Of a stretch of 64,000 bases of DNA, positions 5,939 to 64,000 are shown piece after piece. The first letter of the stretch is position 1. The number at the start of each line of letters is the position of its first letter. Below the pieces are notes generated by a model, which was given only the letters and a program-made list of their open reading frames with translations, had not been told where the DNA came from and searched no databases. Origin of the DNA: Pelagibius sp. Alg239-R121 (GTDB lineage Bacteria > Pseudomonadota > Alphaproteobacteria > Kiloniellales > Kiloniellaceae); NCBI RefSeq assembly GCF_947331435.1, contig NZ_CAMZOF010000001.1:1116001-1180000 (forward strand). The letters run 5' to 3'. The translations under genes and the position numbers were made by a program.

Positions 5939-6037
5939 TCGGGGTCTCCTGAAGACTGACTGACGCTCGCCTGTCGGCAGCGTGGGTTGTTTTAAATAAC
6001 GAATGGTACTAAATGAGAGCTTGCACAAAGATGTCAA

Positions 6038-47525: not shown

Positions 47526-48077
47526 TCACGATCCATGCCCAGGCTTTCTCTTCACGCTTGGTGCAGTCAGAGCCGGCCTCGTTGCCTCTTCCTCGAGAGA
47601 GTGGTTCCCGGTCTCGCGTTGCTCCCGAATCAGTTTGTGCAGGATTGTTTTCAGGCTCTTTTCTTCGTCGCGGGACAAGATTGCGGTCGCCTGCTGCTCA
47701 TGGGTTTTGGCCGCGGCGATAAGCGGCTCGACCAACTCACGTCCGCGGTCGGTAATATAGATCTGAATCTTGCGCCGGTCCGCCGTATCGAGATGTTTTT
47801 CCACAAGTCCGTCGGCTTGAAGCTGATCGATGATCTTGGTCAGGTGAGATTGCTCCAGCAGAACGAACTGAGCCAGCTCGGTGAGCATCAAACCCGGACG
47901 GTCAATCAGACATGCAAGGACGCGCCAGTTCTGGACTTTGACCCCCTGTGCCTTGACTTGGAGGTGAAATTTGCTGGAAAGCGCGTGACTGGTCGCGGCC
48001 AGGAGGTACAGCAGATAGCCGTCGACAAAAGGGGAGGCGTCATCCTCGGTCAGTTTGATCTGGCGCAGGCTAGTCAT
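47526..48077 (-). CDS. MarR-family transcriptional regulator
   Basis: A 183-residue winged-helix protein. MLTELAQFVLLEQSHLTKIIDQLQADGLVEK is the recognition region and TADRRKIQIYITDRGRELV the beta-wing; the helical ends mediate dimerisation. MarR members that control aromatic catabolism commonly bind a CoA thioester or phenolic ligand. It is divergent from the IorA-like gene, with 179 bases between start codons, and near inverted TTTTCATATA repeats around a promoter. It probably represses that operon, the TRAP operon and the downstream acyl-CoA dehydrogenase operon until an intermediate accumulates. Confidence 0.88.
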   Translation of the reverse strand: MTSLRQIKLTEDDASPFVDGYLLYLLAATSHALSSKFHLQVKAQGVKVQNWRVLACLIDRPGLMLTELAQFVLLEQSHLTKIIDQLQADGLVEKHLDTADRRKIQIYITDRGRELVEPLIAAAKTHEQQATAILSRDEEKSLKTILHKLIREQRETGNHSLEEEATRPALTAPSVKRKPGHGS

Positions 48078-48256: not shown

Positions 48257-50416
48257 TTGGCTGAGCGGTCTTTTGTTCAGGAGGTGCAGGCGCTGCGGCT
48301 GGGGGCAGGAGAAACCTTTCGCGGAGAGGGAATTCTTGCTGTCACCAAGGCCTTGCTTGAGTCAGGCGTCGGCTATGTCGGCGGCTATCAGGGGGCGCCC
48401 ATCTCTCACTTGATGGATGTGCTAGCGGATGCCAAGGATATCCTGGACGAATTGGGTGTGCATTTCGAGGCCAGCGCCAGTGAGGCCGCCGCCGCCGCCA
48501 TGCTTTCCGCTTCAATGCATTATCCGATCCGCGGTGCTGCGACCTGGAAGTCGACGGTCGGCACCAACGTGGCCTCAGACGCACTCGCCAACCTCTCTTC
48601 CGGTGGCGTTACGGGCGGTGCGCTGATCATCGTGGGCGAAGACTACGGCGAAGGCTCTTCCATCATGCAGGAGCGGTCTCATGCCTTTGCCATGAAATCG
48701 CAGATCTGGCTGCTGGATCCGCGCCCAAACGCGGAATCGATCGTCAAAGCGGTTCGTGACGGGTTCGAGCTGTCGGAGGCGAGCAACACGCCTGTTATGC
48801 TGGAACTCCGGATCCGTGCCTGCCACGTTCATGGTTCTTTTGAGACACGCGACAACGTCCGCCCGGACTTCACGCTGGAGCAAGCGCGTAATCATCCGAG
48901 GCGTGAGACTGACCGGATCGTGCTCCCGCCGGCATCGTTCGCCCATGAACAAGAGAAGGTTACCAAGAGGTGGCCGGCGGCGGTCGAGTTTATTAAGTCA
49001 CGCAAGTTGAACGAGTTCTTCGACGGGGATATCACGGATATCGGGATCGTTCTTCAGGGCGGCCACTACAACGGCGTCATCGCGGCATTGCGGCAACTGG
49101 GGCTGGCAGATGTTTACGGCAAGACGCGAGTACCCCTCTATGTGATGAATGTGACCTACCCTCTGATCGATGATGAGGTCGTCTCTTTTTGCGCCGACAA
49201 ACGTGCCGTTTTAATGGTCGAGGAAGGACAGCCGGATCATCTGGAGCAGGCGGTAAGCACCATCCTGCGCCGGGCAGGTGTCACGACACCGCTACATGGC
49301 AAGGATTTCCTGCCCAAGGCTGGGGAATATACCAATAAAGCGCTCATCGAGGGCATTCGCGGTTTCCTGGATCTACAAGCAGAAAAACCTGCCGCATTGG
49401 CCGGATCGAAGACGGCTGCACCACTGCCCGACGACGTTGCCAATGCTCTGAACAAAGCAGTGCCGCCCCGTCCCGCCGGCTTTTGCACGGGCTGTCCGGA
49501 GCGCCCGATCTTTTCGGCCCTGACCCTGGCCCAGCAGGACGTCGGTGAGCGCCATATCGCCTGTGATATCGGCTGCCATCTCTTTTCCATCCTGCCACCC
49601 TTTAACGTGGGTGCCAGCACCATGGGGTATGGCTTGGGTGCGGCCTCGGCCTCCGGCCTGAACATCGGCAAGGGTAAACGCTCGATTTCGATCATGGGTG
49701 ATGGCGGTTTCTGGCATAACGGACTGGCCAGCGGGATCGGCAATGCGGTCTTCAATCAAAGCGACGATGTGGTTCTGATCGTCGACAACTTTTACGCAGC
49801 GGCAACCGGCGGGCAGGACATTCTTTCGTCGCGCGCGAGCAATCGAGACCGTTCGACCCGGCACCCGATTGAGGATGCGGTCAAGGGCGTTGGTGTCACC
49901 TGGGTCCGGAGGATCGATCATACCTACGATGTCGGAGCCATGCGTCGAGTCATCGAGGAAGCGCTGACTACTGATGCCAGTGGTCCAAAGGTCGTGATTG
50001 CCTCCAGCGAGTGCATGCTCAACCGCCAGCGCCGGGAGCGCCCGATCCGGCGCAAAGCGCTGGGCGAGGGGCAGCGCGTGGTTGCGCAGAAATTCGGCGT
50101 GGATGAAGACATTTGTACCGGAGATCATGCCTGCACCCGCATCTCCGGTTGCCCGTCCCTGACCCTGAAGGAAACCGACGATCCCTTGCGCGACGATCCG
50201 GTCGCTTTCGTCGACAACTCCTGTGTTGCCTGTGGTCACTGTGGTGAGGTCGCCGATGCCGCCGTGCTGTGCCCGTCCTTTTACCGGGCCGACGCGGTAC
50301 ATAATCCGACATTCTGGGATCGCACTCTCGCTAGGCTGCGTAAGGGTGTGACGGCGAAACTTCAGCAGCGCCGCGATGCGCAGCGTCTGCAGGAACCGGT
50401 GGGGGAGCAGCCTTGA
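48257..50416 (+). CDS. Indolepyruvate ferredoxin oxidoreductase alpha subunit-like (IorA)
   Basis: A 719-residue thiamine-diphosphate enzyme subunit starting at TTG 48257 after AAGGTG. The N-terminal pyrimidine-binding domain includes GGYQGAPISHLMDVL and EASASEAAAAAML; the C-terminal domain contains the cofactor motif SIMGDGGFWHNG with FCTGCPERP before it. The C-terminal tail holds two iron-sulfur clusters: CTGDHACTRISGCP and SCVACGHCGEVADAAVLCP. Such proteins oxidatively decarboxylate arylpyruvates to aryl-acetyl-CoA, reducing ferredoxin. The IorB-like gene follows with a one-base overlap. An arylpyruvate or related 2-oxo acid is the likely substrate; specificity is not shown. Confidence 0.85.
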   Translation: MAERSFVQEVQALRLGAGETFRGEGILAVTKALLESGVGYVGGYQGAPISHLMDVLADAKDILDELGVHFEASASEAAAAAMLSASMHYPIRGAATWKSTVGTNVASDALANLSSGGVTGGALIIVGEDYGEGSSIMQERSHAFAMKSQIWLLDPRPNAESIVKAVRDGFELSEASNTPVMLELRIRACHVHGSFETRDNVRPDFTLEQARNHPRRETDRIVLPPASFAHEQEKVTKRWPAAVEFIKSRKLNEFFDGDITDIGIVLQGGHYNGVIAALRQLGLADVYGKTRVPLYVMNVTYPLIDDEVVSFCADKRAVLMVEEGQPDHLEQAVSTILRRAGVTTPLHGKDFLPKAGEYTNKALIEGIRGFLDLQAEKPAALAGSKTAAPLPDDVANALNKAVPPRPAGFCTGCPERPIFSALTLAQQDVGERHIACDIGCHLFSILPPFNVGASTMGYGLGAASASGLNIGKGKRSISIMGDGGFWHNGLASGIGNAVFNQSDDVVLIVDNFYAAATGGQDILSSRASNRDRSTRHPIEDAVKGVGVTWVRRIDHTYDVGAMRRVIEEALTTDASGPKVVIASSECMLNRQRRERPIRRKALGEGQRVVAQKFGVDEDICTGDHACTRISGCPSLTLKETDDPLRDDPVAFVDNSCVACGHCGEVADAAVLCPSFYRADAVHNPTFWDRTLARLRKGVTAKLQQRRDAQRLQEPVGEQP

Positions 50417-51966
50417 TGGCGGATGAACTCTCCCGGGACCGGCCTATCTGCGTTGCCGTACTTGCCATCGGCGGTCAGGGCGGAGGTGTCGTCACCGACT
50501 GGCTGGTTGCCTTGGCGGAATCGCGGGGCTGGGTCGCGCAGTCAACCAGTGTGCCGGGTGTGGCGCAGCGGACCGGCGCGACCGTCTATTATGTCGAAAT
50601 GATCGAAGCGGGCGGGCAGACTCCGATTCTCGCCCTGATGCCGACGCCCGGCGATGTGGATCTGGTGGTTGCGGCGGAGTGGATGGAGGCCGGGCGTGCA
50701 ATCCAGCGTGGGTTGGTGTCACCGGATCGGACGACCTTGATTGCCTCGACCCATCGCTCTTTAGCCGTATCCGAGAAATCGGTGCCCGGCGATGGCGTGA
50801 ATGATCCCCAAGCTGTTGAGATGGCTGCGGCGCTCACGGCGAAGCGCTTTTTGCGCGCCGATTTGTCTGCCATCGCCCAGGCAAACGGCAGCGTGATCTC
50901 AGCGAGTCTGTTCGGTTCAATCGCAGGCTCCGGCGCTTTACCCTTCCCGCGAAGTGCTTTCGAAGAGGCGGTCCGTGCCGGCGGATTAGGGGTCGAGGCA
51001 AGCCTGCGCGCGTTCGATGCGGCTTACGATTGTCTCGATGAATCCGCGCCGGAGCAGGCTGATGCGAATGAAGCGCCTCTGCCGGTCCTGTCGGGTGGAA
51101 CGCCGGCCGAACGCCAGAAATATCACGCGCTCTGTGAGCGTGCCGGTGCCTACTTTCCGGACTCCATGAAAGCGATCCTCAGGGCCGGGCTTAATCGCGT
51201 GGTGGATTATCAGGATGCCGCCTACGGTGAGGACTATCTCGACCGGCTGGAGGAGATTATAGATCTGGATAAACGGGTCGGTGGCAATGACAAAGAACAC
51301 GCGCTGACGGCCTTTGTGGCGAAGTATCTTGCCTCGGCTATGAGTTATCAGGACGTCATCCGGGTGGCCGACCTGAAATCTCGGAGCAGCCGCTTTGCGC
51401 GGGTTCGCGGTGATATCGCGGCGGACGAAGAGCAGGTTGTCGCCATCACCGAATTTATGCATCCCCGTGTTCAGGAGATTTGCGGTCTGCTGCCGGCTTC
51501 TCTGGGCCGTGGTGCCGAGGAAAATCGCTTCGTTCGGTGGCTGCTGTCGCTTTTTACCGGAAGCAAGCGGGTGCGGAGCGATAGTCTCCGAGGTTTCTTA
51601 TCTCTCTACGTTCTGTCGGCTCTGCGCCGTTGGCGGCGCAAACTGTTGCGCCACGAAATCGAGATGGCGCACATCAGTCGCTGGCTCGCAAATGTCACGC
51701 GTACGGCAAACGATGACTACGACCTCGCGGTCGAGATTGTGAGGTGCCGCCGTATGATCAAAGGCTACAGCGACACTCACGAACGCTCGATGAGCAAGTA
51801 CGATCAGGTATTGCAGGGTATCGATCTGGTGCGGGGCCGAGCCGATGCGGCGGATTGGGCGCAGCGTTTGCACGAAGCCGCATTGCAGGACCCTGACGGT
51901 GTTGCCCTCGCTGGTGCACTGAAAACCATCGAGAGCTTTTCCGGTCCCAAGTCGGAGGTCGCCTGA
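50416..51966 (+). CDS. Indolepyruvate oxidoreductase beta subunit-like (IorB) with DUF6537-type C-terminal domain
   Basis: A 516-residue protein from ATG 50416, overlapping the IorA-like stop by one base. Residues 8-190 form the gamma-type domain (AVLAIGGQGGGVVTDWLVALAESRG ... STSVPGVAQRTGATVYYVEM). The remainder, from about residue 230 (GGTPAERQKYHALCERAGAYFPDSMKAIL) onward, is a helical DUF6537-like region, longer than classical IorB (about 200 residues). It forms the second half of the 2-oxoacid oxidoreductase. It directly abuts the reductase gene at 51967, so electron transfer partners are co-expressed. Confidence 0.83.
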   Translation: MADELSRDRPICVAVLAIGGQGGGVVTDWLVALAESRGWVAQSTSVPGVAQRTGATVYYVEMIEAGGQTPILALMPTPGDVDLVVAAEWMEAGRAIQRGLVSPDRTTLIASTHRSLAVSEKSVPGDGVNDPQAVEMAAALTAKRFLRADLSAIAQANGSVISASLFGSIAGSGALPFPRSAFEEAVRAGGLGVEASLRAFDAAYDCLDESAPEQADANEAPLPVLSGGTPAERQKYHALCERAGAYFPDSMKAILRAGLNRVVDYQDAAYGEDYLDRLEEIIDLDKRVGGNDKEHALTAFVAKYLASAMSYQDVIRVADLKSRSSRFARVRGDIAADEEQVVAITEFMHPRVQEICGLLPASLGRGAEENRFVRWLLSLFTGSKRVRSDSLRGFLSLYVLSALRRWRRKLLRHEIEMAHISRWLANVTRTANDDYDLAVEIVRCRRMIKGYSDTHERSMSKYDQVLQGIDLVRGRADAADWAQRLHEAALQDPDGVALAGALKTIESFSGPKSEVA

Positions 51967-52932
51967 ATGTCGGAATTGGAACTCACGGTCATCGGGGTGG
52001 CCGAAGAAGCGCCTTTGGTCCGGGCCTTTCATTTGGAGGCGGTCTCGGGCGGCCAGCTACCCGGCTATAGCCCCGGGTCTCACATCAGGGTGCAGCTGCC
52101 CAATGGCGACGATCGGCCTTATTCGCTGGTCAATCTCGACCCCTCGATTGAGACCGAAAAAGGTGTGAAGCACTATCGACTTGGCGTGCGTCTGGAAGAA
52201 AACTCCCTAGGCGGATCGTCGTTTATGCACGGCCTCTCGCCCGGCGACCGGATTTTGACAACGCCACCGAAGAACGAGTTTGCCCTGGCTGGCGATGCCG
52301 GTCCGGCTGTCCTGGTCGCCGGCGGCATCGGAATTACGCCGATTGCCTCAATGGCCGCCGAACTGCTGCGCAACAATTGCGACTTTCTTTTGCACTACTC
52401 CGGTCGGGCGCAGGGGAGTCTTGCCTTCATCGGGCCTCTCAGGGACTTGCTCGGAGAAAGGCTCATCGAGCACTACGACGATCTGACGGGCGGACCCCTC
52501 GACATCGACGCCGTCTTATCGGCGTCCGATGCCAGCCAGCATCTCTACGTCTGCGGGCCCAAAGGCATGATCGAGGCAATGCAGATTGCGGCGCGGGCCC
52601 GTGACTGGCCGGAGGCGCGCATTCATTTCGAGCTCTTCACGCCGCCGGTACCCCAAACGGGTGACAGGCCCTTCGAAATAGAAGTCGCGTCGACGGGTGA
52701 AAGCTACACCATTCCGGTGGGCGAAAGTATCATTCAGGTGCTGGAGGCCGCCGGGCACGACCTGATCTACGACTGCCAGCGCGGCGATTGCGGGATTTGC
52801 CAGACCGATGTGATTTCCGGTGAGCCGGATCATCGCGATCTGGTTTTAACGGATAGCGAAAAAGCCGAAGGCAAGGTGATGCAGATCTGCGTATCGCGGG
52901 CGCGTTCCGTGAAACTCGTTCTGGACCTTTAG
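51967..52932 (+). CDS. Ferredoxin-type oxygenase reductase (VanB/PDR family)
   Basis: A 321-residue flavoprotein reductase. N-terminal FMN-binding domain (PGSHIRVQLPNGDDRPYSLVN), a NAD-binding domain (GGIGITPIASMAAELL ... YVCGPKGMIEAM) and a C-terminal plant-type [2Fe-2S] domain with CQRGDCGIC and a last cysteine in MQICVSR. Such single-chain reductases transfer electrons from NADH to the Rieske centre of the partner oxygenase, here the genes beginning 20 bases downstream. It starts at ATG 51967 right after the IorB-like stop. It may also draw on ferredoxin from the 2-oxoacid oxidoreductase; that is speculative. Confidence 0.88.
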   Translation: MSELELTVIGVAEEAPLVRAFHLEAVSGGQLPGYSPGSHIRVQLPNGDDRPYSLVNLDPSIETEKGVKHYRLGVRLEENSLGGSSFMHGLSPGDRILTTPPKNEFALAGDAGPAVLVAGGIGITPIASMAAELLRNNCDFLLHYSGRAQGSLAFIGPLRDLLGERLIEHYDDLTGGPLDIDAVLSASDASQHLYVCGPKGMIEAMQIAARARDWPEARIHFELFTPPVPQTGDRPFEIEVASTGESYTIPVGESIIQVLEAAGHDLIYDCQRGDCGICQTDVISGEPDHRDLVLTDSEKAEGKVMQICVSRARSVKLVLDL

Positions 52933-52951: not shown

Positions 52952-54280
52952 ATGATGAACGATGGAATGGTTATCGAGACGATCCGCGGTCTTATCCGTG
53001 ACGGTGAGGTACACCGGGATCTCTATTGCAGCCAGGAGGTCTTTTCGCTGGAGATGGAGCATTTGTTCCGCAATGCCTGGGTTTACATCGGCCACGAGAG
53101 CCAGGTGCCGAACAAGGGCGACTATTTTGCGACGGAGCTCGGTACTCAGCCTGTCTTGATGGTTCGCCACAGCGACAATTCTATCCGCGCCCTGTTCAAC
53201 CGCTGCCCTCATAAGGGCACACAGGTGGTGATCGATCGGAAGGGAAACACTGGAAAGTTTTTTCGTTGCCCCTACCACGCCTGGTCTTTTAAGACGGACG
53301 GCAGCCTTCTGGCCGTGCCTTTGAAGAAGGGGTATGAGAATACCGGCATGCCCGAATCCTGTGCTTCGAAGGGCATGACACCTTTGGCCCATGTCGAAAA
53401 CTATCGCGGGTTCATCTTCGCCAAGATCAACGATGCCGGTCCCGACTTCGACGGCTTTTTCGGCGAATCCCTCTCCAGTCTCGACAACATGATCGACCGC
53501 TCGCCGGAGGGACGGTTGGAAGTGGTCGGCAGTCCGCTGCGATATCTGCATCACTGCAATTGGAAGATGCTGGTCGAAAATCAGACCGACACCTGTCATC
53601 CGATGGTCGCGCATGAATCCTCGGCGGGGACCGTAAAGCAGATCTGGGAACAGGAAGGCGGCGACGGCCCCAAGCCTATGGCGGTCGAGTGTATCCTGCC
53701 CTTCATGTCGTCCTACGAATTCTTTGAAAACATGGGGATCCGGACCTGGGACAACGGTCACGGCCACACTGGTGTCCATCACTCGATCCATTCCGATTAC
53801 TCTGCGATCGAGGGTTACTTCGAGCGGATGGTGACAGCCTATGGTGAAGACCGGGCAAAGCAGATTCTCGACGAAAACCGGCACAACACGGTCTACTTCC
53901 CAAACATGATGATCAAGGGGCCGATCCAGTCTCTGCGGCTTTTTAAGCCGATTGCCGCCAACAAGACGCTGGTGGAGTCCTGGATTTTCCGGCTGGTGGG
54001 TGCTCCGGACAAACTGCTCGAGCGCACGGCCATGTACAATCGGCTTATCAACGCACCGACCTCCATTGTCGGACACGACGATCTTGAGATGTACGAGCGT
54101 GCGCAGTCGGGCCTGATGAGCGACGGCAACCAGTGGGTCAATATGCAAAGACTCTACGATCCGGCCGAAGACGACTCGCCGAACGCGACGTACAATGGCA
54201 CCACCGAGGCACAGATGCGTAACCAGTTCCGGGCCTGGGAGAAATTCATGACACTCGGCATTGAAGAGGCCGCGTCATGA
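52952..54280 (+). CDS. Rieske non-heme iron ring-hydroxylating oxygenase, alpha subunit
   Basis: A 442-residue alpha subunit. The Rieske [2Fe-2S] ligands are C85, H87 (CPH) and C106, H109 (CPYH). The mononuclear iron site is ENQTDTCHPMVAH, carrying the bridging Asp and the two His. AGGAGGT lies ten bases upstream of ATG 52952, the strongest ribosome binding site in the operon. It inserts oxygen into an aromatic ring, probably with the beta subunit next door. Substrate is unknown; the neighbours suggest an aryl acid or indole-type compound. Confidence 0.9.
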   Translation: MMNDGMVIETIRGLIRDGEVHRDLYCSQEVFSLEMEHLFRNAWVYIGHESQVPNKGDYFATELGTQPVLMVRHSDNSIRALFNRCPHKGTQVVIDRKGNTGKFFRCPYHAWSFKTDGSLLAVPLKKGYENTGMPESCASKGMTPLAHVENYRGFIFAKINDAGPDFDGFFGESLSSLDNMIDRSPEGRLEVVGSPLRYLHHCNWKMLVENQTDTCHPMVAHESSAGTVKQIWEQEGGDGPKPMAVECILPFMSSYEFFENMGIRTWDNGHGHTGVHHSIHSDYSAIEGYFERMVTAYGEDRAKQILDENRHNTVYFPNMMIKGPIQSLRLFKPIAANKTLVESWIFRLVGAPDKLLERTAMYNRLINAPTSIVGHDDLEMYERAQSGLMSDGNQWVNMQRLYDPAEDDSPNATYNGTTEAQMRNQFRAWEKFMTLGIEEAAS

Positions 54281-54756
54281 CGCCGGCGGCTCAGGATCTT
54301 ATTGATTTCGTCGTTGCCGAAGCACGGCTGATCGACGAGCGCCGTTTTCCCGAATGGCTGGAACTCTTCAGCGAGGACGGTATCTACTGGATGCCGTTGG
54401 AGCCGGATCAGGAGGAGGAGCACCTGACCACCTCCCTGATGTATGAGGACATGCTGTTGTTGCGTACCCGGGTCCAGCGGCTGGAAGGGCAGCGGACCTT
54501 TTCCCAGAAACCAAAAAGCCGCTGCCAGCATTTACTTCAAGTCCCCAGTGTCGATGAAATTAATCATGATGAAAATCTCTACCGGACCTACACGCCTTTC
54601 CACTATGTCGAAACCCGCTTCGATGAGCAGACTCTGCTGGCAGGCTGGGCACGCCACCGTCTTTGCGTCATAGAGGGCAATCTCAAGATCAAGTGCAAGC
54701 GGGTCGACCTGGTCAACTGCGACGCGCCTCACCGCAACATTCAGCTATTTGTGTAG
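54277..54756 (+). CDS. Ring-hydroxylating oxygenase beta subunit
   Basis: A 159-residue small subunit of the cystatin-like fold. AEARLIDERRFPEWLELFSEDGIYWMPLE and YRTYTPFHYVETR match beta subunits of aromatic dioxygenases, which stabilise the alpha3beta3 assembly. It overlaps the alpha subunit stop by four bases (ATGA) and its own stop overlaps a possible GTG start of the next gene. Length and partner are as expected. Confidence 0.85.
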   Translation: MTPAAQDLIDFVVAEARLIDERRFPEWLELFSEDGIYWMPLEPDQEEEHLTTSLMYEDMLLLRTRVQRLEGQRTFSQKPKSRCQHLLQVPSVDEINHDENLYRTYTPFHYVETRFDEQTLLAGWARHRLCVIEGNLKIKCKRVDLVNCDAPHRNIQLFV

Positions 54757-54764
54757 TGAACTCT

Positions 54765-56405
54765 ATGTCGTTTGAACCAAAAGACCCGGCCAGTTTCGAG
54801 AACGTCTTTGCGTTTTTTGCGGCGACGGCGGCGGCAGTTTCCGAACGGCCCTGCTTCAATGTCTTGCCTGAAACGGCCGAGATCTACGGTATCGCCTCGG
54901 GCGAACTGAGTTATGGCGGCCTGGCCCTGGAGGCAGACGCCAAATTCGTGGCCTACCGGGAGGCTGGGTATGGCCAGGGGCACCGGGTTGGCCTGTTGTT
55001 GGAAAACCGCCCGGCTTTTCTCGTGCATTGGCTGGCACTGAACCGGCTGGGCGCTTCCATCGTGCCGATTAATCCGGACCTTCGTGCCGCCGAGCTAGCA
55101 TATCTGGTCAGCCATTCGGAAATGGATCTGGCAGTTGTCCTCAAGGCTCGGCAGGAAGACCTCAAACGGGCAGGAGCAGACGGCGGCTTGGCCGTCATCG
55201 GACCCGACGCTAACGTGCCCATTGTGGCAGAGCATGCAAAACAACAAACCGGTGGCTTCGATGACGAAGCAGCCTTGCTTTACACCTCCGGAACCACGGG
55301 TCTGCCAAAAGGCTGTGTGCTGAACAACAGTTACTTCCTCAACTGCGGTCATTGGTATCGCTTTGTCGGTGGTCACTGTGCGCTAAATCTCGATGGTGAG
55401 CGGATGATTACGCCCTTGCCGTTGTTCCATATGAATGCGTTGGCCTGCTCGACCATGGCGATGATTGCCGTGGGTGGTTGCCTGACAGTGCTGGATCGCT
55501 TTCATCCCACAAGCTGGTGGGAGTCAGTGCGGTCTTCCAAGGCCACAGTGATGCACTATCTTGGCGTGATGCCGGCTATGCTGATGTCCGCGGCAGATTC
55601 CGGTGAGGATCGCAACCATTTCCTGCGCTTCGGCTTCGGGGCCGGCGTTGAGGAACGGCTGCATGCCCCCTTTGAGGCACGTTTCGGTGTACCGCTGATC
55701 GAGGCCTGGGCCATGACCGAGACCGGCAACGGCGCGGTTGTAGCCGCGTCGCAAGACCCCCGCCATATCGGTACCCGCTGTTTTGGCAGGCCGCAGAACG
55801 AAATTGCGGTTCGAATTGAGGGAGACGACGGCAAGGAGGCCGAATTTGATGTGCCTGGCGAACTGCTTGTGCGGCGCAAAGGTGAGAACCCCCGCTATGG
55901 CTTTTTCGACCGGTATCTGAAGGATCCTGAAGCGACCGCTGAAGCTTGGCGGGACAACTGGTTCCACACCGGTGACATCGTAAAGCGCAACGAAGACGGC
56001 AGCCTGGCTTTCGTTGACCGCAAGAAGAACGTTATCCGGCGCTCCGGTGAAAACATCGCGGCCATAGAAGTCGAAGGCGTGCTACTGCGTCATCCCGAGG
56101 TTGCGGCGGTTGCCGTTGCCGCAACACCCGATCCTGTCCGAGGAGATGAGGTCTTTGTCTGTATCGTGCCGGCGGAGGGTTTTCAAAACGCGCGCGCGCA
56201 GGACCTGGCAGAGAATATTACGCGCTGGTCGTTGGAGCAGCTCGCTTACTATAAGGCGCCCGGTTATATTGCCTTCGTCGAGAACCTGCCGTTGACCTCG
56301 ACCAATAAGGTTCAACGCGGTGAACTGAAAACGCTGGTCGAGGACTTGCGTGCGCGGGAAAATACTCTCGATCTTCGGCATTTGAAAAAACGGGCAGTGG
56401 CCTGA
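54765..56405 (+). CDS. AMP-forming acyl-CoA synthetase
   Basis: A 546-residue adenylate-forming enzyme. The start is ATG 54765 or GTG 54756, which overlaps the previous stop as TAGTG; neither has a strong ribosome binding site. Core motifs are LLYTSGTTGLPKGCV (A3), the GAGVEERLHAPFEARFGVPLIEAWAMTET (A5) segment, GDIVKRNEDGSLAFVDRKKNVIRRSGENIAAIEVE (A7-A8) and TSTNKVQRGEL near the end with the catalytic lysine. It makes an acyl- or aryl-CoA ester for the CoA-dependent genes downstream. The 2-oxoacid oxidoreductase gives another entry to a CoA ester, so two substrates may converge. Confidence 0.87.
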   Translation: MSFEPKDPASFENVFAFFAATAAAVSERPCFNVLPETAEIYGIASGELSYGGLALEADAKFVAYREAGYGQGHRVGLLLENRPAFLVHWLALNRLGASIVPINPDLRAAELAYLVSHSEMDLAVVLKARQEDLKRAGADGGLAVIGPDANVPIVAEHAKQQTGGFDDEAALLYTSGTTGLPKGCVLNNSYFLNCGHWYRFVGGHCALNLDGERMITPLPLFHMNALACSTMAMIAVGGCLTVLDRFHPTSWWESVRSSKATVMHYLGVMPAMLMSAADSGEDRNHFLRFGFGAGVEERLHAPFEARFGVPLIEAWAMTETGNGAVVAASQDPRHIGTRCFGRPQNEIAVRIEGDDGKEAEFDVPGELLVRRKGENPRYGFFDRYLKDPEATAEAWRDNWFHTGDIVKRNEDGSLAFVDRKKNVIRRSGENIAAIEVEGVLLRHPEVAAVAVAATPDPVRGDEVFVCIVPAEGFQNARAQDLAENITRWSLEQLAYYKAPGYIAFVENLPLTSTNKVQRGELKTLVEDLRARENTLDLRHLKKRAVA

Positions 56406-57592
56406 TGACGCGTCGGGGCAAGGCAGCTCGGCAGGGCTATGACGGCGTTGTGGCGGCGGTGCCTATCACCATTCCGTACCAGCGCTATTCACCTGAACCA
56501 GCGCACTGGTGGATCGCGCGGGCGCTCGGTGATCTGGTGCGCACCGCAGGCATCACACCGCAGGATGTCGATGGCTTCTGCGTCTCCTCTTTTACCCTGT
56601 TTCCCGATACGGCCGTGGGACTCACTCAGCATCTGGGGCTCACGCCACGCTGGCTCGATCATATTCCCATGGGTGGAGCTTCGGGCGTGGTCAGCTTGCG
56701 CCGGGCTGCGCGCGCGGTTCAGGCCGGCGATGCGGAGATGGTCGCCTGTGTTTCTGGTGATGCAAATCACGTGGATTCGTTCCGGCGGATGCTTTCGAGC
56801 TTCAGCCGTTTTGCACAGGACGCTTCTTACCCCTACGGTTCGGGCGGCCCCAACGCCAGCTTTGGTCTCATGACCGACCACTATATGAAGACCTATGGCG
56901 TGACGCGGGAGGATTTTGGCAGGATCTGCGTGGCGCAGCGGGAAAACGCGCTTAGCTTTCCCCACGCGCTGATGAAAAAGCCATTGAGTCTCGAACAGTA
57001 CATAGCGGCCCGGCCGATTTCCGATCCCATTGCCCTGTTCGATTGCGTAATGCCTTGTGCTGGAGCCGAGGCATTTCTGGTCATGAGCGAAACGGCAGCC
57101 AGGGATCTCGATCTGCCTGCCGTGCGCATTCTTTCGACTATCGAACGACATAATGCTTTTCCGGACGACCCGATCCAGATGCGCGGTGGTTGGGAGATGG
57201 ACCGCGAGGAATTCTGGGCCTTGGCGGAGGTGACGCCTGGCGACGTCGACCTGCTGGAAACTTATGACGACTATCCGGTCATTTCGATGATGCAGTTCGA
57301 GGATCTCGGGTTTTGCAAAAAAGGTGAGAGCGCCGACTTCGTGCGGAGCCACGATCTGACCAACGGCGGCAGCTTTCCCCATAATACTTCCGGCGGCCAG
57401 CTGTCGGTCGGACAGGCCGGAGCAGCGGGCGGTTATCTGGGAATGGTCGAGGCTTTGCGGCAAGTGACCGGGACCGCGTTGGGTAATCAGGTTGAAGACG
57501 CTAACCTCGCCATTGTTTCGGGCTTTGGCATGATTAACTACGATCGAGGCCTTTGTTCCGGCGCGGCGATTCTCGCGGGGCCGGGCGCATGA
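56405..57592 (+). CDS. Thiolase-like (SCP2/BbsB-type) protein lacking the usual nucleophile
   Basis: A 395-residue thiolase-fold protein overlapping the synthetase stop by one base. The fold is visible in SGGPNASFGLMTDHYMKTYGV and CVMPCAGAEAFLVMSE. At the nucleophile position, normally CASG, it reads MGGASG (residues 89-94), and the histidine loop usually GHP reads GGQLSVGQAGAAGG. Both catalytic groups are therefore replaced, as in some DUF35-associated thiolase-like proteins. It is followed by a DUF35-containing protein, the arrangement in benzoylsuccinyl-CoA thiolase (BbsAB), which suggests a carbon-carbon cleavage of a 3-ketoacyl-CoA or a structural role. Confidence 0.8.
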   Translation: MTRRGKAARQGYDGVVAAVPITIPYQRYSPEPAHWWIARALGDLVRTAGITPQDVDGFCVSSFTLFPDTAVGLTQHLGLTPRWLDHIPMGGASGVVSLRRAARAVQAGDAEMVACVSGDANHVDSFRRMLSSFSRFAQDASYPYGSGGPNASFGLMTDHYMKTYGVTREDFGRICVAQRENALSFPHALMKKPLSLEQYIAARPISDPIALFDCVMPCAGAEAFLVMSETAARDLDLPAVRILSTIERHNAFPDDPIQMRGGWEMDREEFWALAEVTPGDVDLLETYDDYPVISMMQFEDLGFCKKGESADFVRSHDLTNGGSFPHNTSGGQLSVGQAGAAGGYLGMVEALRQVTGTALGNQVEDANLAIVSGFGMINYDRGLCSGAAILAGPGA

Positions 57593-58842
57593 CCGAAGCG
57601 ATCCAACGTCCGCGGCGGAAGGATCCACAGAAACGCACTGTTCTGCCGACCTTGCCGCCGACCTCGCGTAGCCGGAAAGCCTTGGGCTTTACCGCGGCGG
57701 CGGCGGCGGGGCGATTTGTTCTGCAGAAATGCGATGACTGCGGTGCGGTGACCTATCCGCCGCGGGAGGCCTGTCCCAAATGTCTTTCTATGGCGTTAAA
57801 TTGGCGAGACATGCCGGATGGCGGGCGCCTGATCGCGGAAACCACGATCCAGACCAGCACCAACGTTTATTTCCGGGAACGCACGCCCTGGCGCACCGGC
57901 ACGATCGAGCTGGACGCCGGAATCACTGTGTTGGCCCACATTCATGGCGATGTGGCGCAGAGCGGACGGGTGCGCATGATCGCGCGCACTGATAAATCGG
58001 GCCAGGGAGTTCTCATGGCTCTGCCGGAACAGGAGACGGCAAATATGGCGGATGACAAGCAATTGCGGGAATTGACCTGCGATCCGAAACATCGCCGGGT
58101 GTTGGTCACCGACGGCCGCACAGCACTTGGGCAGGCGATGGCAAACGCGGTTTCTGCAGCAGGGGCATCGACCGTCTTTGTCGGAATTGCAGAAACCTGG
58201 CGACCCTATGCGGGTGCCGATGAGCTGGCAGCCATTCCCAATGTAGAGGTCATGGCGCTTGATGTGACGGATTCGATTTCCGTCAAGGAGCTGGCGAGCG
58301 AGATTGGCGGCAAGGTCGATATCCTGATCAATACTGCAGAGCATATCCGCGCGGGCGGCGCGATGGACCGGGACGGGATCGTGACCGCGCGGGATGAAAT
58401 GGAAGTGAATTACTTCGGGCCGCTGCGGCTGATCCAGGCCTTCGGTCCCGGGATGAGATTCAGGGGCGCCGACGGAGTGAACTCTGCCTGCGCCTGGGTC
58501 AATCTGTTGTCCGTCTATGCGCTGTCCAACTGGCCGGCCTATGGTTCGACTTCTGCCAGCCAGGCCGCGGCCTATTCGCTCAGCCAGTGTCTTCGCGGTG
58601 AGTTCAGAGGCTCGGGTGTGAAAGTTCTGAATGCGCTCTTTGGGCCGCTGGAGGAAGACTGGCGTCAGCATTTACCGCCACCCAAAGTGACACCGGAAGG
58701 TTTGGCGAAAGCCGTGGTTGGCGCCTTGCAGCAGGGCCTGGAAGAGCTCGCGGTTGGCGCTGTCGCCGAAGATTTTCTGGTCCGCTGGAAAGAAGACCCC
58801 CGCGTTCTGGAGCGCGAACTGACCCAGCCGGAAGGAGCCTGA
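57589..58842 (+). CDS. Fusion of DUF35 (Zn-ribbon/OB-fold) and degenerate SDR domain
   Basis: A 417-residue fusion overlapping the thiolase-like gene by four bases (ATGA). Residues 40-150 are DUF35: a zinc ribbon with C48, C51, C62 and C65 followed by an OB fold (GGRLIAETTIQTSTNVYF). Residues 168-415 are an SDR fold (RVLVTDGRTALGQAMA ... VEVMALDVTD ... VDILIN). At the active site, normally YxxxK, it reads TSASQAAA with T320 and Q324 in place of tyrosine and lysine. The SDR half therefore probably binds substrate or structure only, like the inactive BbsC partner of BbsD in benzylsuccinate beta-oxidation. No typical protein carries both domains, so this fusion stands out. Confidence 0.78.
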   Translation: MTEAIQRPRRKDPQKRTVLPTLPPTSRSRKALGFTAAAAAGRFVLQKCDDCGAVTYPPREACPKCLSMALNWRDMPDGGRLIAETTIQTSTNVYFRERTPWRTGTIELDAGITVLAHIHGDVAQSGRVRMIARTDKSGQGVLMALPEQETANMADDKQLRELTCDPKHRRVLVTDGRTALGQAMANAVSAAGASTVFVGIAETWRPYAGADELAAIPNVEVMALDVTDSISVKELASEIGGKVDILINTAEHIRAGGAMDRDGIVTARDEMEVNYFGPLRLIQAFGPGMRFRGADGVNSACAWVNLLSVYALSNWPAYGSTSASQAAAYSLSQCLRGEFRGSGVKVLNALFGPLEEDWRQHLPPPKVTPEGLAKAVVGALQQGLEELAVGAVAEDFLVRWKEDPRVLERELTQPEGA

Positions 58843-58846
58843 GATC

Positions 58847-59644
58847 ATGAGCACAAACGGCACCACAGCTCTGTCGGCACTTGCAGAAGCTCTGTCGAAG
58901 GGCTCGGTCCGCACGGTCGATCTGACTCACACGCTCGATCCGGATTTTCCAGTCATCATTTTGCCGCCGGAGTTCGGACAGTGCGCGCGCTTCCGGGTCG
59001 AAGAAGTCTCCCGCTATGACGATCGCGGGCCCGCCTGGTACTGGCGCAACTTCAGTTGCAGCGAACACACCGGCACGCATTTCGATGCGCCGGTGCATTG
59101 GGTCTCGGGTAAGGATCTGCCCAACGCCAGTGTCGATTCCATTCCGGTTGAGGGCTTCGTGCGCCCGGTCTGTGTGGTCGACTGCTCGAAGCAGTCGGCG
59201 GAGGACGAAGATTTTCTGATGACGAAGGACTTCCTGCTGGCCTGGGAAGAGGAGCACGGACGCATTCCCGAAGGCTGCTGGGTGCTGATGCGCACCGACT
59301 GGTCGAAGCGCAACCCCGCCGCATATCTCAATATGCGCGAAGATGGAGCCCATTCTCCCGGACCGGACGGCGGTGCGATCACCTTTCTGATCGAGGAGCG
59401 TAACGTGGTTGGTTTCGGCACTGAATGCGTGGGGACCGATGCCGGGCAGGGCGCACATCTCTCGCCGCCCTATCCGGCGCACTTTCTGTTGCATGGTGCC
59501 GGACGCTACGGGTTACAGTGTCTCGCGAACCTGGATCTGCTGCCACCGACCGGCGCTATGCTGATCTGTCCGCCGCTGAAGATCAAACATGGCTCCGGCA
59601 GTCCTTTGCGCGTGCTGGCGCTCGTCGAAGAGACAAGCTCGTGA
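58847..59644 (+). CDS. Cyclase-family metal-dependent hydrolase (kynurenine formamidase/isatin hydrolase-like)
   Basis: A 265-residue metal hydrolase. SEHTGTHFDAPVHWVSGKD is the metal-binding HxGTHxDxPxH motif, and GFGTECVGTDAGQG and HFLLHGAG support the fold. The ATG at 58847 lies four bases after the previous stop region. Family members open cyclic amides or N-formyl bonds, including kynurenine formamidase and isatin hydrolase. Near Rieske and arylpyruvate genes, a hydrolase that opens an oxidised indole-type ring would be logical; this is inference only. Confidence 0.83.
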   Translation: MSTNGTTALSALAEALSKGSVRTVDLTHTLDPDFPVIILPPEFGQCARFRVEEVSRYDDRGPAWYWRNFSCSEHTGTHFDAPVHWVSGKDLPNASVDSIPVEGFVRPVCVVDCSKQSAEDEDFLMTKDFLLAWEEEHGRIPEGCWVLMRTDWSKRNPAAYLNMREDGAHSPGPDGGAITFLIEERNVVGFGTECVGTDAGQGAHLSPPYPAHFLLHGAGRYGLQCLANLDLLPPTGAMLICPPLKIKHGSGSPLRVLALVEETSS

Positions 59645-60372
59645 ATGGTGTAGATCATCTGGCCGTTGTGACCGGCGGCTCAGCGGGGATCGGCGAACGG
59701 CTTTGCCGGGATCTTCTGGAACTGGGCTATGAAGTGGTTTCCGTCGCCCGTCGCGCGCCGGACTGGTCCAATGACCGGCTTCGGGTTGTGAAGGCGGATC
59801 TGACCGACCCGCTTGAAACTCAGCAGGCAGCCGAGGAGATCGCAACGTCGGGCGGGGTCACGCACTTCATCCACAACGCCGGGATTATTTTACCCAATTT
59901 GTTGGAAGATGCCGAACCCGGCGATCTGCTGAAACTGACCCAACTGCATGCAGGTGCAGCGCTCACCTTCGTAAAGGCCTTTCTGCCCGCGATGAAAACG
60001 CATGGCTTCGGGCGAATCATCTTTAACTCCTCGCGGGCGGCCATGGGGGCGCCGACGCGCACGGCCTATTCTTATTCCAAGGCTGGTCTGCACGGTATGG
60101 CACGCACCTGGGCACTGGAACTGGGGCCCCATGGCATCACCGTGAACGTTGTCGCGCCGGGGCCGGTGCTGACGGAAAATTTCTGGGGCATCATCGAAAA
60201 AGACAGCGAACGGCAGCAGAAATTGGCTGACGGTCTTCCGGTGCGCCGGATTGGAACCGTGGAGGATGTCGCGCGCGCAATTTTGTTCTTCGCCGATCCG
60301 TTGAACGGCTATGTCACTGGTCAGACCCTTTATGTTTGCGGTGGCGCCAGCATTGGCGGAGTTACGCTTTAA
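59641..60372 (+). CDS. SDR-family oxidoreductase (BbsD-like position)
   Basis: A 243-residue SDR starting at GTG 59641, overlapping the cyclase stop by four bases (GTGA). It carries TGGSAGIG, the catalytic serine in IFNSSRAAMG and the complete YSYSK motif, so unlike the SDR half of the DUF35 fusion it should be active. FADPLNGYVTGQTLYVCGG closes the fold. It probably oxidises a 3-hydroxyacyl-CoA before thiolytic cleavage. Its end overlaps the convergent LysR gene by four bases. Confidence 0.84.
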   Translation: MNGVDHLAVVTGGSAGIGERLCRDLLELGYEVVSVARRAPDWSNDRLRVVKADLTDPLETQQAAEEIATSGGVTHFIHNAGIILPNLLEDAEPGDLLKLTQLHAGAALTFVKAFLPAMKTHGFGRIIFNSSRAAMGAPTRTAYSYSKAGLHGMARTWALELGPHGITVNVVAPGPVLTENFWGIIEKDSERQQKLADGLPVRRIGTVEDVARAILFFADPLNGYVTGQTLYVCGGASIGGVTL

Positions 60373-61256
60373 GCTACATTGATGATTTCAGCCTGTAGCC
60401 ACTGGCAGAACTGTATTACCTTCTCCAGCCCCTCTTTCTTTTCAGGCAGCGTCAGAAAATATTTCGGCGTGCGCGGTTTTAGCTGATCGGGAATATCGAA
60501 GGGGATCATCAGAGATCCTTCGTCGATGAAGCGCTGCGCGTTATAACGATTGCCGAGCGCGACACCCATCCCGAGGCGGGCGGCTTCAAAGGCATGTAGC
60601 GAGTAACTGACCGATAGGAAACGCTGCGCATCGAGTGATGGCGACTCACGTAGAATGGCGCGCCAGGAAATCAGCCGGCGTTCGGTCTCTATCAGGGTGA
60701 CGCGCTTTAGATCCCCGAGGTTATTCATCGGGTAGCGGGTTGCCAGGTCAGGTGCGGCAAGAGGTACGACCTCGTCGGACAGGATCTGGACCGCATTCGA
60801 CTTGCTTTCCGGAGCGAGGCGATACTCGATCGCGCAGTCGATGCTTTCCTCTTCGGGTGTGAAGGTCATACGTTCGAGCAGGCGCAGGTCCAAGCTGTCG
60901 TGGACCGCTGAAAACTTCCCGATCCGGGGCAGCAGCCACATGGCCAGGAAGCTGGGCGGTGCCGAGACGGTCAGGGTTTCAACGCGCGAGTAGTTGGCGG
61001 CTTCGAAGGTTGCTTCTTCCAGGTGATCCAGGGCTGGACTGATCCGATTGAGGAAGTCGCGGCCGGTGTCGGTGAGGATCAGGCGCTTGCCCTGGCGATG
61101 GAACAGCGGGGTGCGCAGATGACTTTCCAGATTGGCGAGCTGGTGGCTGACCGCCGATTGAGTGACCGACAATTCGTTTGCGGCAGTCCGAACGCCGCCC
61201 AGACGGGCCACAGCCTCGAAGGCGCTCAGGGCTTTGAAGGATGGAAGATTTCGCAT
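60369..61256 (-). CDS. LysR-family regulator (GcvA type)
   Basis: A 295-residue regulator. FEAVARLGGVRTAANELSVTQSAVSHQLANLESHLRTPLF is the helix-turn-helix of the GcvA subgroup, and SYSLHAFEAARLGMGVALGNRYNAQRFIDEGSLM is its conserved C-terminal segment. It is convergent with the SDR gene and divergent from the acyl-CoA dehydrogenase, with 94 bases between starts. It probably controls that second operon in addition to the MarR protein. The effector is unknown. Confidence 0.87.
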   Translation of the reverse strand: MRNLPSFKALSAFEAVARLGGVRTAANELSVTQSAVSHQLANLESHLRTPLFHRQGKRLILTDTGRDFLNRISPALDHLEEATFEAANYSRVETLTVSAPPSFLAMWLLPRIGKFSAVHDSLDLRLLERMTFTPEEESIDCAIEYRLAPESKSNAVQILSDEVVPLAAPDLATRYPMNNLGDLKRVTLIETERRLISWRAILRESPSLDAQRFLSVSYSLHAFEAARLGMGVALGNRYNAQRFIDEGSLMIPFDIPDQLKPRTPKYFLTLPEKKEGLEKVIQFCQWLQAEIINVA

Positions 61257-61280
61257 TGTTCGAAAATACTATTCAAAAAT

Positions 61281-61309
61281 CTGAAAATAAATCATTTTTT
61301 TCATATAAT
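61281..61309 (+). promoter_or_regulatory. Promoter of the acyl-CoA dehydrogenase operon with MarR-like half-site
   Basis: A consensus -10 TATAAT (61304-61309) lies 17 bases after CTGAAA (61281-61286), a four-of-six -35. TTTTCATATAA (61298-61308) overlaps the -10 and is identical to the 11-mer at 48137-48147 beside the IorA-like operon promoter. Binding of the same MarR protein would block this promoter. Confidence 0.6.
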
Positions 61310-61350
61310 GTGTTTCGGTACCTTGAGCTCAAAGATACGAGGGCAAGGCA

Positions 61351-62526
61351 ATGACTCTGGGAAATTTGGACGAACGGCGGGAGGCGATCACGGAGATCCG
61401 CAGTGCAGTTGCCGCGCTCTGCGCCGGCTATGGCGAGGACTATTGGCGCCGGCTGGATGCCGACAAGGGTTATCCCACTGAATTCGTCACAGAGATGACC
61501 GAAGCCGGGTTCCTGACAGCGTTGATCCCGGAGGGTTACGGCGGTTCGGGGCTGGGCCTTTTTGAAGCCTGCGCTATTCTGGAAGAGATCAGCCGCCGGG
61601 GTGCCCATGCGGGGGCCTGTCATGCACAGATGTATGTCATGGGTTCGGTTTTGCGCCATGGGTCTGACGAACAGAAGCAGGCCTATTTACCCAAGATCGC
61701 CAGGGGTGAGCTACGCCTTCAAAGCTTCGGCGTCACGGAGCCTACCACCGGCACGGATACGACCAGCCTGAAGACCATGGCGCGGCGGGATGGCGACGTT
61801 TACAGAATCAACGGCCAGAAGGTCTGGATCAGCCGGGTCGAACACTCCGACCTTATGGTGTTGCTGGCCCGAACGACACCGCGTGAAGACTGCAAGAAAA
61901 AGACCGAAGGCCTCTCGGCCTTCATCGTCGATCTGCGCCATGCCAAAGGCAACGGACTGACCATCCAACCCATTGACGCCATGATCAACCACCACGCCTG
62001 TGAACTGTTTTTTGACGACCTGCAAGTGCCTGCGGAAAACCTTCTCGGCGAGGAAGGCAAGGGCTTCCGGGTCATCCTGGACGGCATGAACGCAGAGCGG
62101 ATTTTGATCGCCTCGGAATGTATCGGCGACGCCCGGTATTTTCTGGACAAAGCGACAGCGTATGCCCGCGAACGCGAAGTCTTCGGTCGGCCGATCGGCG
62201 CCAACCAGGGGATCCAGTTTCCGCTGGCGAAGTGCTATGCCGAAATGGAAGCGGCGGCCCTGATGGTTGAGCGGGCAGCTCTGCTGTTCGATGCTAAGGT
62301 ATCCTGCGGTGCCGAGGCCAATATGGCCAAGATGCTGGCCGCGGAAGCCTCATGGAAGGCAGGTGATGCCGCCATGCAGACGCACGGCGGTTTCGCCTTC
62401 AGCAGGGAATACAACATCGAACGCAAGTTCCGAGAGACGCGCCTTTATCAGATCGCTCCGATCTCGACCAATCTTATCCTCAGCTACATCGCCGAGCATG
62501 TGCTCGAGCTGCCTAGAAGCTTTTAG
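61351..62526 (+). CDS. Acyl-CoA dehydrogenase
   Basis: A 391-residue FAD enzyme. LRLQSFGVTEPTTGTDTTSLKTMA contains the FAD-binding segment, and EREVFGRPIGANQGIQFPLAKCYAEM is the second dehydrogenase signature. The C-terminus reads FRETRLYQIAPISTNLILSYIAEH, so the glutamate usually found in YEGTSE-type ends is not at that place; the base may lie elsewhere. It is the first gene of a new operon with a good promoter and is followed by a class III CoA-transferase. A substituted succinyl-CoA or similar short branched acid is a plausible substrate. Confidence 0.86.
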   Translation: MTLGNLDERREAITEIRSAVAALCAGYGEDYWRRLDADKGYPTEFVTEMTEAGFLTALIPEGYGGSGLGLFEACAILEEISRRGAHAGACHAQMYVMGSVLRHGSDEQKQAYLPKIARGELRLQSFGVTEPTTGTDTTSLKTMARRDGDVYRINGQKVWISRVEHSDLMVLLARTTPREDCKKKTEGLSAFIVDLRHAKGNGLTIQPIDAMINHHACELFFDDLQVPAENLLGEEGKGFRVILDGMNAERILIASECIGDARYFLDKATAYAREREVFGRPIGANQGIQFPLAKCYAEMEAAALMVERAALLFDAKVSCGAEANMAKMLAAEASWKAGDAAMQTHGGFAFSREYNIERKFRETRLYQIAPISTNLILSYIAEHVLELPRSF

Positions 62527-62539
62527 GGACTCTGTAAAA

Positions 62540-63694: not shown

Positions 63695-64000
63695 ACCGAC
63701 GCTTGATCAAGACATCTTGGCAAGCTGGATCGGTAAGCAGGAAGAGCAGGCTGATGTCATTGAGTCGCGGACCGCGCGTCTGATGCAAGCGACCCTTGAC
63801 CGAGATCAGACTCTACAAAGTGGTGATGCCCTGCCGCCCCTGTGGCACTGGCTCTATTTTCCGATTGTGTTGCCGCAAAAGGACCTAGGCCGTGATGGCC
63901 ATCCCAAGCTGGGTGGATTCCTGCCGCCTGTCGCGCTGCCTCGGCGCATGTGGGCCGGCGGGCGCTTCGGATTCGAGCGGGCTCTGCGCATTGGCGAAGC
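63687..64000 (+). CDS. FAS1-like/MaoC-type dehydratase (partial, C-terminus off window)
   Basis: The first 104 codons are visible, from ATG 63687 overlapping the CoA-transferase stop by eight bases. The opening (DQDILASWIGKQEEQADVIESRTARLMQATLD ... PPLWHWLYFP ... DGHPKLGGFLPPVALPRRMWAGG) matches itaconyl-CoA/mesaconyl-C4-CoA hydratases and related proteins that hydrate unsaturated dicarboxylic CoA esters. Order with the dehydrogenase and class III transferase suits a short dicarboxylate route. The rest of the gene, and a possible lyase beyond it, are outside the window. Confidence 0.72.
   Translation, partial: MSEPTLDQDILASWIGKQEEQADVIESRTARLMQATLDRDQTLQSGDALPPLWHWLYFPIVLPQKDLGRDGHPKLGGFLPPVALPRRMWAGGRFGFERALRIGE

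Follow-up and report, generated by a model that had tools for sequence, protein, structure and literature searches.

The window analysed here is a stretch of 64,000 nucleotides from the alphaproteobacterium Pelagibius sp. Alg239-R121 (contig NZ_CAMZOF010000001.1, positions 1,116,001 to 1,180,000), and it carries at 57589..58842 of the forward strand (+) a gene whose product joins a DUF35 domain to a domain with the fold of the short-chain dehydrogenases/reductases (SDR). Sequence and gene order identify it as iadH of an iad locus for the degradation of auxin (indole-3-acetic acid). We consider it likely that the iadH product acts with IadG, the thiolase-fold protein encoded next to it, as a DUF35-dependent retro-aldolase, which would split dioxindole-3-acetyl-coenzyme A (CoA) to yield isatin together with acetyl-CoA; the SDR half would then be a pseudoenzyme with a structural role. 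This proposal builds on a conserved fusion, on active-site residues lost both from the SDR half and from IadG, and on linkage to an isatin hydrolase gene.

iadH Encodes a Fused DUF35-SDR Protein

The iadH orthologue is a single open run of 417 codons, and its product comprises a DUF35 part (residues 36-125), an ordered linker (136-168) and a pseudo-SDR part (169-412). Three Pfam matches exceed their curated cut-offs, namely zf-ChsH2 at residues 36-67 (50.8 bits, cut-off 23.2), OB_ChsH2_C at 72-125 (35.9 bits, cut-off 27.1) and adh_short at 170-359. The zinc-ribbon cysteines C48, C51, C62 and C65 (57730..57783, +) are kept in 90 of 90 sequences; this set, to which all residue counts out of 90 refer, consists of the window and 89 further loci (L013-L101) and shrinks to 60 rows when near-copies are thinned at 85% or more. 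The initial annotation, which had described one chain of DUF35 and SDR with its four cysteines intact and with TSASQ in place of the YxxxK motif, is borne out in these respects. It was also right in taking the fusion for a genuine one. Frameshift and misassembly are rejected, as the frames of the homologues are likewise single and open: the shortest (379) is a fragment at a contig end and all others measure at least 418, including that of L015, one of eight places in the phylum, in which one TGA lies within the matched stretch. The fusion is neither a chance join nor an assembly error.

In the predicted structure of IadH (predicted local distance difference test, pLDDT, 88.2; predicted template modelling score, pTM, 0.89), the blocks of the linker score 89-95, which points to an ordered linker, and the SDR half would be rigidly attached to the DUF35 half. 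The SDR half superposes on structure 5u4s over 235 residues at 1.8 Å (Z 31.9) and thus has the SDR fold. For the DUF35 half the fold assignment comes from Pfam and sequence, because the rows of the structural alignment (VIA-align) mostly cover residues 159-415; its best match among solved DUF35 domains is that of Shy (9myr_B), at a weak 26 bits. The view of the initial annotation that DUF35 proteins normally stand alone does not hold in every case, since DUF35 domains fused to MaoC-fold domains have been published (ChsH2 and Shy; PMC11321319).

The SDR Half Has Lost Its Catalytic Residues

Both signatures of a catalytic SDR are degenerate in IadH. The cofactor loop reads TDGRTALG (residues 174-181; 58108..58131, +) in place of TGxxxGxG, a loss that the initial annotation had not recorded, and the active site reads TSASQ (residues 321-325; 58549..58563, +), with Thr321 at the Tyr site and Gln325 at the Lys site. 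The first glycine of the loop is lost in 90/90 sequences (Asp in 70, Asn in 17, and Glu, Ala and Ser in one each). Tyr is kept in 28/90 and Lys in 9/90, both of them together in a single sequence (L060, loop TDGKSPLG), while the catalytic-type Ser is kept in 85/90. Serving as a control, 19 unfused SDR relatives, retrieved with only the SDR half as query, keep Lys in 19/19 and Tyr in 14/19, and the 16 of them that align over the glycine loop all retain it; since five of these relatives carry Leu in place of Tyr, the Tyr taken alone is a weak marker. PRK08264-type SDRs such as 5u4s share the fold of the fused half and differ from it in that 5u4s was solved with nicotinamide adenine dinucleotide phosphate (NADP) and that the unfused relatives retain Lys and, in the aligned ones, the glycine loop. 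Judged by its motifs, the SDR half appears non-catalytic, a catalytic role being unlikely, and it probably binds no nicotinamide adenine dinucleotide (NAD).

The fused halves form one group with support 100/100 in a tree built from 24 of them, from the 19 unfused relatives, drawn from the same taxonomic class, and from IadJ; a single fusion event is consistent with this full support. The best NCBIfam model of the half is NF006118 of the PRK08264 group, which it matches below cut-off (160 of 279 bits). A duplication of iadJ as source of the half is not supported, given the match to the PRK08264 group and the very long branch of IadJ, whose place is unsure. The window also encodes, at 5198-6037 (-), an intact SDR that belongs to the group of the dead half but is not fused; the two are 33% identical.

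The SDR half and the DUF35 half are conserved to a similar degree: in the SDR half the mean share of the commonest residue is 0.70, compared with 0.64-0.76 for the other parts of IadH, and 23 positions are fully invariant across the 60 thinned rows.

IadG, the Probable Partner of the DUF35 Half

The iadG orthologue (56405..57592, +) encodes a thiolase-fold protein without the nucleophilic Cys and with the motif Y287-D-D-Y, a predicted retro-aldolase, and its stop overlaps the iadH start by four bases. The same four-base overlap is found in 80/88 loci, and the two genes lie within 30 bases of each other in 87/88 (400 in L075). IadG is encoded in 79 of the best 80 loci of the genome collection, the exception, L029, being cut by a contig end. 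It is very probable that the DUF35 half pairs with this thiolase-fold protein.

At the position of the thiolase Cys, IadG has Gly91 in 88 of 89 rows and a gap in L080, with Cys in none, and Pfam gives a C-terminal thiolase match only. The YDDY motif is present in 88/89 rows (gap in L066), as is its Tyr287, which corresponds to the catalytic Tyr302 of Sal (one gap), and the active-site residues Gln332 and Gln337 are kept in 89/89. By sequence, the closest solved relatives are Sal (9myr_A, 157 bits), 4u4e (149), Ltp2 (140) and BbsB (88); by fold, Sal bound to the DUF35 of Shy leads with Z 47.2, the next match reaching 44.1, BbsB 42.5 and ordinary thiolases about 33-34.

Sal-Shy is the bile acid aldolase of Comamonas testosteroni (9myr; PMC12329534, PMC11321319). 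It shares with the IadG-IadH pair the thiolase fold, Gly at the thiolase Cys, the Tyr base, two Gln and a DUF35 partner that is joined to a different enzyme fold. Two residues of the YDCY motif of Sal, Tyr302 and Cys304, are reported as essential, and Gln347 and Gln352 are proposed to assist (PMC12329534). Differently from Sal, IadG has YDDY; differently from Shy, the DUF35 of IadH has four Cys (Cys3His1 in Shy), its fused domain is an inactive SDR (an active MaoC hydratase in Shy) and its predicted linker is ordered, whereas Shy has a disordered tether of 26 residues. As one defining residue differs, namely Asp289 at the position of Cys304 (88/89, one gap), IadG is taken here to act in the manner of Sal without itself being one. 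The Ltp2-ChsH2-ChsH1 complex of actinobacterial cholesterol degradation (6ok1; fold Z 44.1) likewise combines a retro-aldolase with a DUF35 fused to an inert domain; that domain of ChsH2 is MaoC-like and pairs with the active ChsH1, and the second catalytic residue of Ltp2, Tyr344, aligns to a gapped stretch at the GQAG of IadG, as it does in Sal, which has Gln there. DUF35 and thiolase fold are also combined in the benzoylsuccinyl-CoA thiolase BbsAB of anaerobic toluene degradation (7pxp), to which the IadG match is weaker than to Sal on both scales. IadG thus resembles a retro-aldolase and is probably no thiolase. The initial annotation had proposed that the fusion links a thiolase partner to a non-catalytic dehydrogenase subunit; a thiolase-family partner is indeed tied to a dead SDR, but this partner is probably an aldolase.

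A Proposed Retro-Aldol Step and Its Alternatives

The intermediate ahead of the CoA steps is given as dioxindole-3-acetic acid, C10H9NO4, and a compound of this formula builds up, with less anthranilate being formed, upon deletion of either iadG or iadH (PMC12633357); IadH is thus needed at or after the side-chain step. We propose that IadG-IadH splits dioxindole-3-acetyl-CoA by a retro-aldol reaction, which would yield isatin and acetyl-CoA directly and without any redox step. A tertiary beta-alcohol CoA ester cannot be oxidised to a ketone, so that thiolysis is unavailable for dioxindole-3-acetyl-CoA, whose tertiary alcohol cannot become a beta-ketone; a retro-aldol cleavage needs no redox step. 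IadI would then hydrolyse isatin to isatinate, which may be converted to anthranilate or anthraniloyl-CoA either by the linked IorA/IorB-like enzyme, which could oxidatively decarboxylate this 2-oxoacid, or by another enzyme. The pseudo-SDR half would perform no redox chemistry and would extend the DUF35 subunit as a fixed structural element, with a role in complex assembly, in the substrate cleft or in product-side docking.

The product of the proposed cleavage agrees with the gene that follows. The iadI orthologue (58847..59644, +) encodes an isatin hydrolase, with best match 5nna (444 bits), then 5nmp (364) and 4j0n (284), followed at a distance by an unspecified cyclase (125) and kynurenine formamidase (29), and it is present in 80/80 loci. 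Structure 5nna is isatin hydrolase A of Labrenzia aggregata (PMC6117287), and a Labrenzia strain bears this very operon on a plasmid.

Several observations weigh against a retro-aldolase, the first of them being the main one. A compound of the formula of dioxindole, C8H7NO2, and not isatin, C8H5NO2, accumulates without iadI and in the iadCDEFGH_JK2 strain, and the side-chain removal is read as reductive in the same preprint (PMC12633357). The Ala, Ser and His variants of Sal Cys304 had no detectable activity, Asp not being among the reported variants (PMC12329534), and it is Asp289 that stands at this position in IadG. Four IadG rows carry a Cys at 93, two residues past the nucleophile position; 4u4e, a "putative thiolase", ranks second to Sal by sequence; and the second rank by fold is nearly tied between Ltp2-ChsH2 (44.1), a DUF35-bound archaeal acetoacetyl-CoA thiolase (43.8) and the trypanosome thiolase-like protein TbSLP (43.7). 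The decay of the SDR active site is uneven, Lys and Tyr surviving in different sequences. The dimer helices of the SDR half are no more conserved than random windows or the rest of the domain (fraction 0.17), and conserved dimer helices were accordingly dropped as proof of a role in oligomerisation. Finally, the IadI query matches 9/289 genomes, three of which (G885, G708 and G105; 48-55% identical) lie outside the fused-IadH set of the parallel SDR-half search, so that an isatin hydrolase alone does not imply the IadG-IadH step. Regarding the first of these points, cells easily reduce isatin, and the accumulation of C8H7NO2 can be reconciled with a retro-aldol step via such a reduction, which is a repair of the hypothesis. 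Both isatin and dioxindole have been seen in CL14 cultures (PMC9613470).

In one alternative, the pseudo-SDR would assemble with the active IadJ into an SDR hetero-oligomer in which it is the inactive chain, and would so tie IadJ to IadG in the way of the inert half of ChsH1-ChsH2 or of BbsC/BbsD; we regard this as unlikely. BbsC is reportedly an inactive SDR subunit paired with the active BbsD, the Bbs genes being separate and BbsAB being said to perform true thiolase chemistry. An iadJ homologue lies in the same locus in 53/80 cases, and ChsH2, in which DUF35 is joined to an inert domain whose mate is active, provides a precedent (PMC11321319). However, the 51 loci with full flanks divide, within about 10 kilobases (kb), into 35 with both IadD and IadJ, two with IadD only, one with IadJ only and 13 with neither (12 of them Bradyrhizobium, one Rhodopseudomonas), and these 13 have G-H-I nonetheless. 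In addition, the best models of the SDR half belong to another SDR group than those of IadJ, and IadJ works on the free acid ahead of CoA activation (PMC12633357). Because of this order of events, no SDR-made CoA ester would be available to IadG, and the channelling of a CoA ester between thiolase and SDR, raised by the initial annotation, is not supported, the less so as 13/51 loci have neither IadJ nor IadD within that distance. A test for channelling in Sal-Shy, which among the DUF35 complexes studied is the closest, found none (PMC12329534).

An extended form of the retro-aldolase proposal, which as a whole we hold to be rather improbable, would make IadG-IadH a new DUF35-dependent aldolase with a Tyr/Asp pair, in which the dead SDR docks IadI or hands the reactive isatin to it, and G-H-I a small transferable metabolon that is joined to a varied first-step oxidation, a Rieske enzyme in iad and, for Bradyrhizobium strains like BTAi1, perhaps a molybdenum enzyme. 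The narrower idea of product channelling, namely that the pseudo-SDR still has a binding pocket and hands the isatin released by IadG on to IadI, seems quite improbable. G-H-I are the core of the loci by the above counts for IadG and IadI, and most intermediates of IadF-G-H-I went undetected and are thought to be quickly channelled (PMC12633357). Nevertheless, in Sal-Shy 93% of the intermediate escaped, though across another interface (PMC12329534), and the spacing between iadH and iadI is variable, iadI being 0.7-3 kb off in L055 and L077.

The published account takes IadG for a ketothiolase and IadH for an alcohol dehydrogenase that together with IadF take off the acetyl side chain by a reductive route; IadI would act as an amidase on the resulting C8H7NO2 (dioxindole). 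In its favour is that C8H7NO2 accumulates both upon mutation of iadI and in the expression strain that lacks this gene (PMC12633357), to which the one IadH homologue retaining both Tyr and Lys may be added. We find it very doubtful, as the first loop glycine is lost throughout and the Tyr/Lys pair in 89/90 homologues, no Cys occupies the nucleophile position of IadG in 89 rows, IadI is a near relative of enzymes whose substrate is isatin, and the substrate is a tertiary beta-alcohol. That the SDR half is a neutral relic without function beyond attachment, as its different decay between lineages might suggest, is highly unlikely in view of its conservation and invariant positions, the full length of the half in the studied rows being partly due to row selection.

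Distribution of the Fusion

A full-length IadH match is found in 4/23 genomes of the family, own genome included and all of a single genus (the other three at 91-92% identity), in 8/398 genomes of the phylum, again including the own one, and in 23/299 genomes from the family of genome G401, a different family within the phylum. At least 80% of the query is matched in 34 plasmid records, the 20 listed being from Labrenzia, Roseibium and Sulfitobacter, and viral contigs gave a single weak partial match (32% over 86 residues). The same domain order, which the initial annotation had suggested looking for, does occur in other genomes. The best 80 loci of the genome collection match IadH over its whole length, L029 being cut by the contig end at residue 39; they are the best 80 of 531 candidates encoding some relative, not necessarily fused, and the list favours fused copies, since it was ranked by similarity to the whole protein.

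No stand-alone version of iadH was seen in searches with IadG, the SDR half and IadI as queries, the surroundings of iadI in G885, G708 and G105 not having been looked at. With IadG, 10/398 genomes match, and eight of these (61-100% identical, own included) are the same eight that have fused IadH; the other two (37-39%) have a stand-alone DUF35 of 140 residues without the full cysteine set. With the SDR half, searched against 289 genomes, the fused matches have at least 52% identity and the unfused ones at most 38%, the lowest fused half across all 89 loci being that of L021 (45.5%). The IadG paralogues of 37-39% identity, at 1459-3050 of L110 and 1063-2655 of L111, carry a YDDF motif and lie beside such stand-alone DUF35 proteins, on one of which Pfam was run; they are possibly further unrecognised DUF35 aldolases.

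Large plasmids from marine Labrenzia and Sulfitobacter (NZ_CP045345, NZ_CP083566 and NZ_CP020695) carry the operon too, near TRAP transporters. Given these marine genera, auxin degradation of the iad type perhaps extends beyond soil bacteria.

The iad Locus and Its Neighbours

The genes of the window follow the order MarR regulator (-), IorA, IorB, reductase, Rieske large subunit, Rieske small subunit, adenosine monophosphate (AMP)-forming ligase, thiolase-fold protein, iadH, cyclase and SDR, i.e. the order C-D-E-F-G-H-I-J with a MarR regulator known from Variovorax paradoxus CL014 (PMC12633357). In coordinates, the divergent MarR-family gene, likely iadR, lies at 47526..48077 (-), and is followed on the forward strand by two genes for an IorA/IorB-like 2-oxoacid:ferredoxin oxidoreductase with a presumed role in isatinate conversion (48257..51966, +), and by the orthologues of iadC, ferredoxin-NAD reductase (51967..52932, +), iadD, Rieske oxygenase large subunit (52952..54280, +), iadE, its small subunit (54277..54756, +), and iadF, AMP-forming acyl-CoA ligase (54765..56405, +, start codon picked by eye). 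Downstream of iadI, the iadJ orthologue (59641..60372, +) encodes an SDR whose translation shows intact TGGSAGIG and YSYSK motifs. As to the oxygenase, IadD scores 630 bits with 9o71_A, which is V. paradoxus CL014 IadDE (PMC12633357), and 628 with the chain of 7yls and 8h2t, every other listed oxygenase remaining at 148 or below, and IadE has as best solved match the chain common to 7yls, 8h2t and 9o71 (156 bits, next best 37).

IadH of V. paradoxus CL014 occupies the same position between iadG and iadI (PMC12633357, PMC10374108, PMC9613470), and is in print "annotated as an alcohol dehydrogenase", IadG as ketothiolase (PMC12633357). The likeness of the window gene to it is drawn through gene position and through G401, and not through the CL014 IadH sequence. 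In G401, IadD scores 961 bits over 426 residues with 9o71, from which this genome can be inferred to be a Variovorax or a close relative, and its locus L134 has the full order from IorA to J with a fused H; it follows from gene order and from this operon that the published IadH should be a DUF35-SDR fusion as well. A word search of the available text of four iad accounts (PMC12633357, PMC10374108, PMC9613470, PMC11630574) returned no "DUF35", and one of the available text of the 2025 preprint among them (PMC12633357) returned neither "aldol" nor the words indolepyruvate and 2-oxoacid. A literature search of titles and abstract openings found no account of a DUF35-SDR fusion or of an IadG-IadH aldolase. 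We would like to point out that, in the text available of PMC8383072, the name iad is given to an iac-like cluster, and the iadH named there is for this reason a different gene.

The surroundings of the core vary between loci. IorA/IorB-like genes are found in 21/80 loci; in the window they stand directly before iadC, and in L033, L040, L045 and L048 behind iadC on the other strand. At 1.2-2.7 kb beyond iadJ, all five loci taken from the family of G401 (L134, L135, L136, L137 and L138) have another pair of Rieske genes, the large subunit being 48-52% and the small one 45-48% identical to that of the window, and in L025, L026, L029, L031, L037 and L053 a divergent Rieske pair (43-46% to IadD) is located after iadJ and not before iadF. 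Behind G-H-I in Bradyrhizobium sp. BTAi1 (L083, 8820-18520) lie genes for an AMP-ligase, for a [2Fe-2S] protein and for a molybdopterin-binding subunit, and these neighbours suggest a molybdenum enzyme as alternative first step. Past the operon of the window (60369-63998) are found a LysR gene (-), an acyl-CoA dehydrogenase, a CaiB-type CoA-transferase and one more gene; an acyl-CoA dehydrogenase at least 64% identical lies near iad in 4/80 loci, two of them in the window's genus.

Implications

Efforts are under way to engineer the iad pathway into root bacteria in order to balance auxin, and its side-chain step has been assigned from annotations (PMC12633357). A redox-neutral retro-aldolase would account jointly for the presence of a CoA ligase and an isatin hydrolase, for the absence of the thiolase Cys and for the dead dehydrogenase. 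The pseudo-SDR is, after the MaoC-type domains, the second fold known to be fused to DUF35, and it bears on the purpose of DUF35 fusions. As for auxin degradation itself, the sequences suggest an aldol-type split of the side chain, rather than the thiolase and dehydrogenase chemistry to which it has been assigned.

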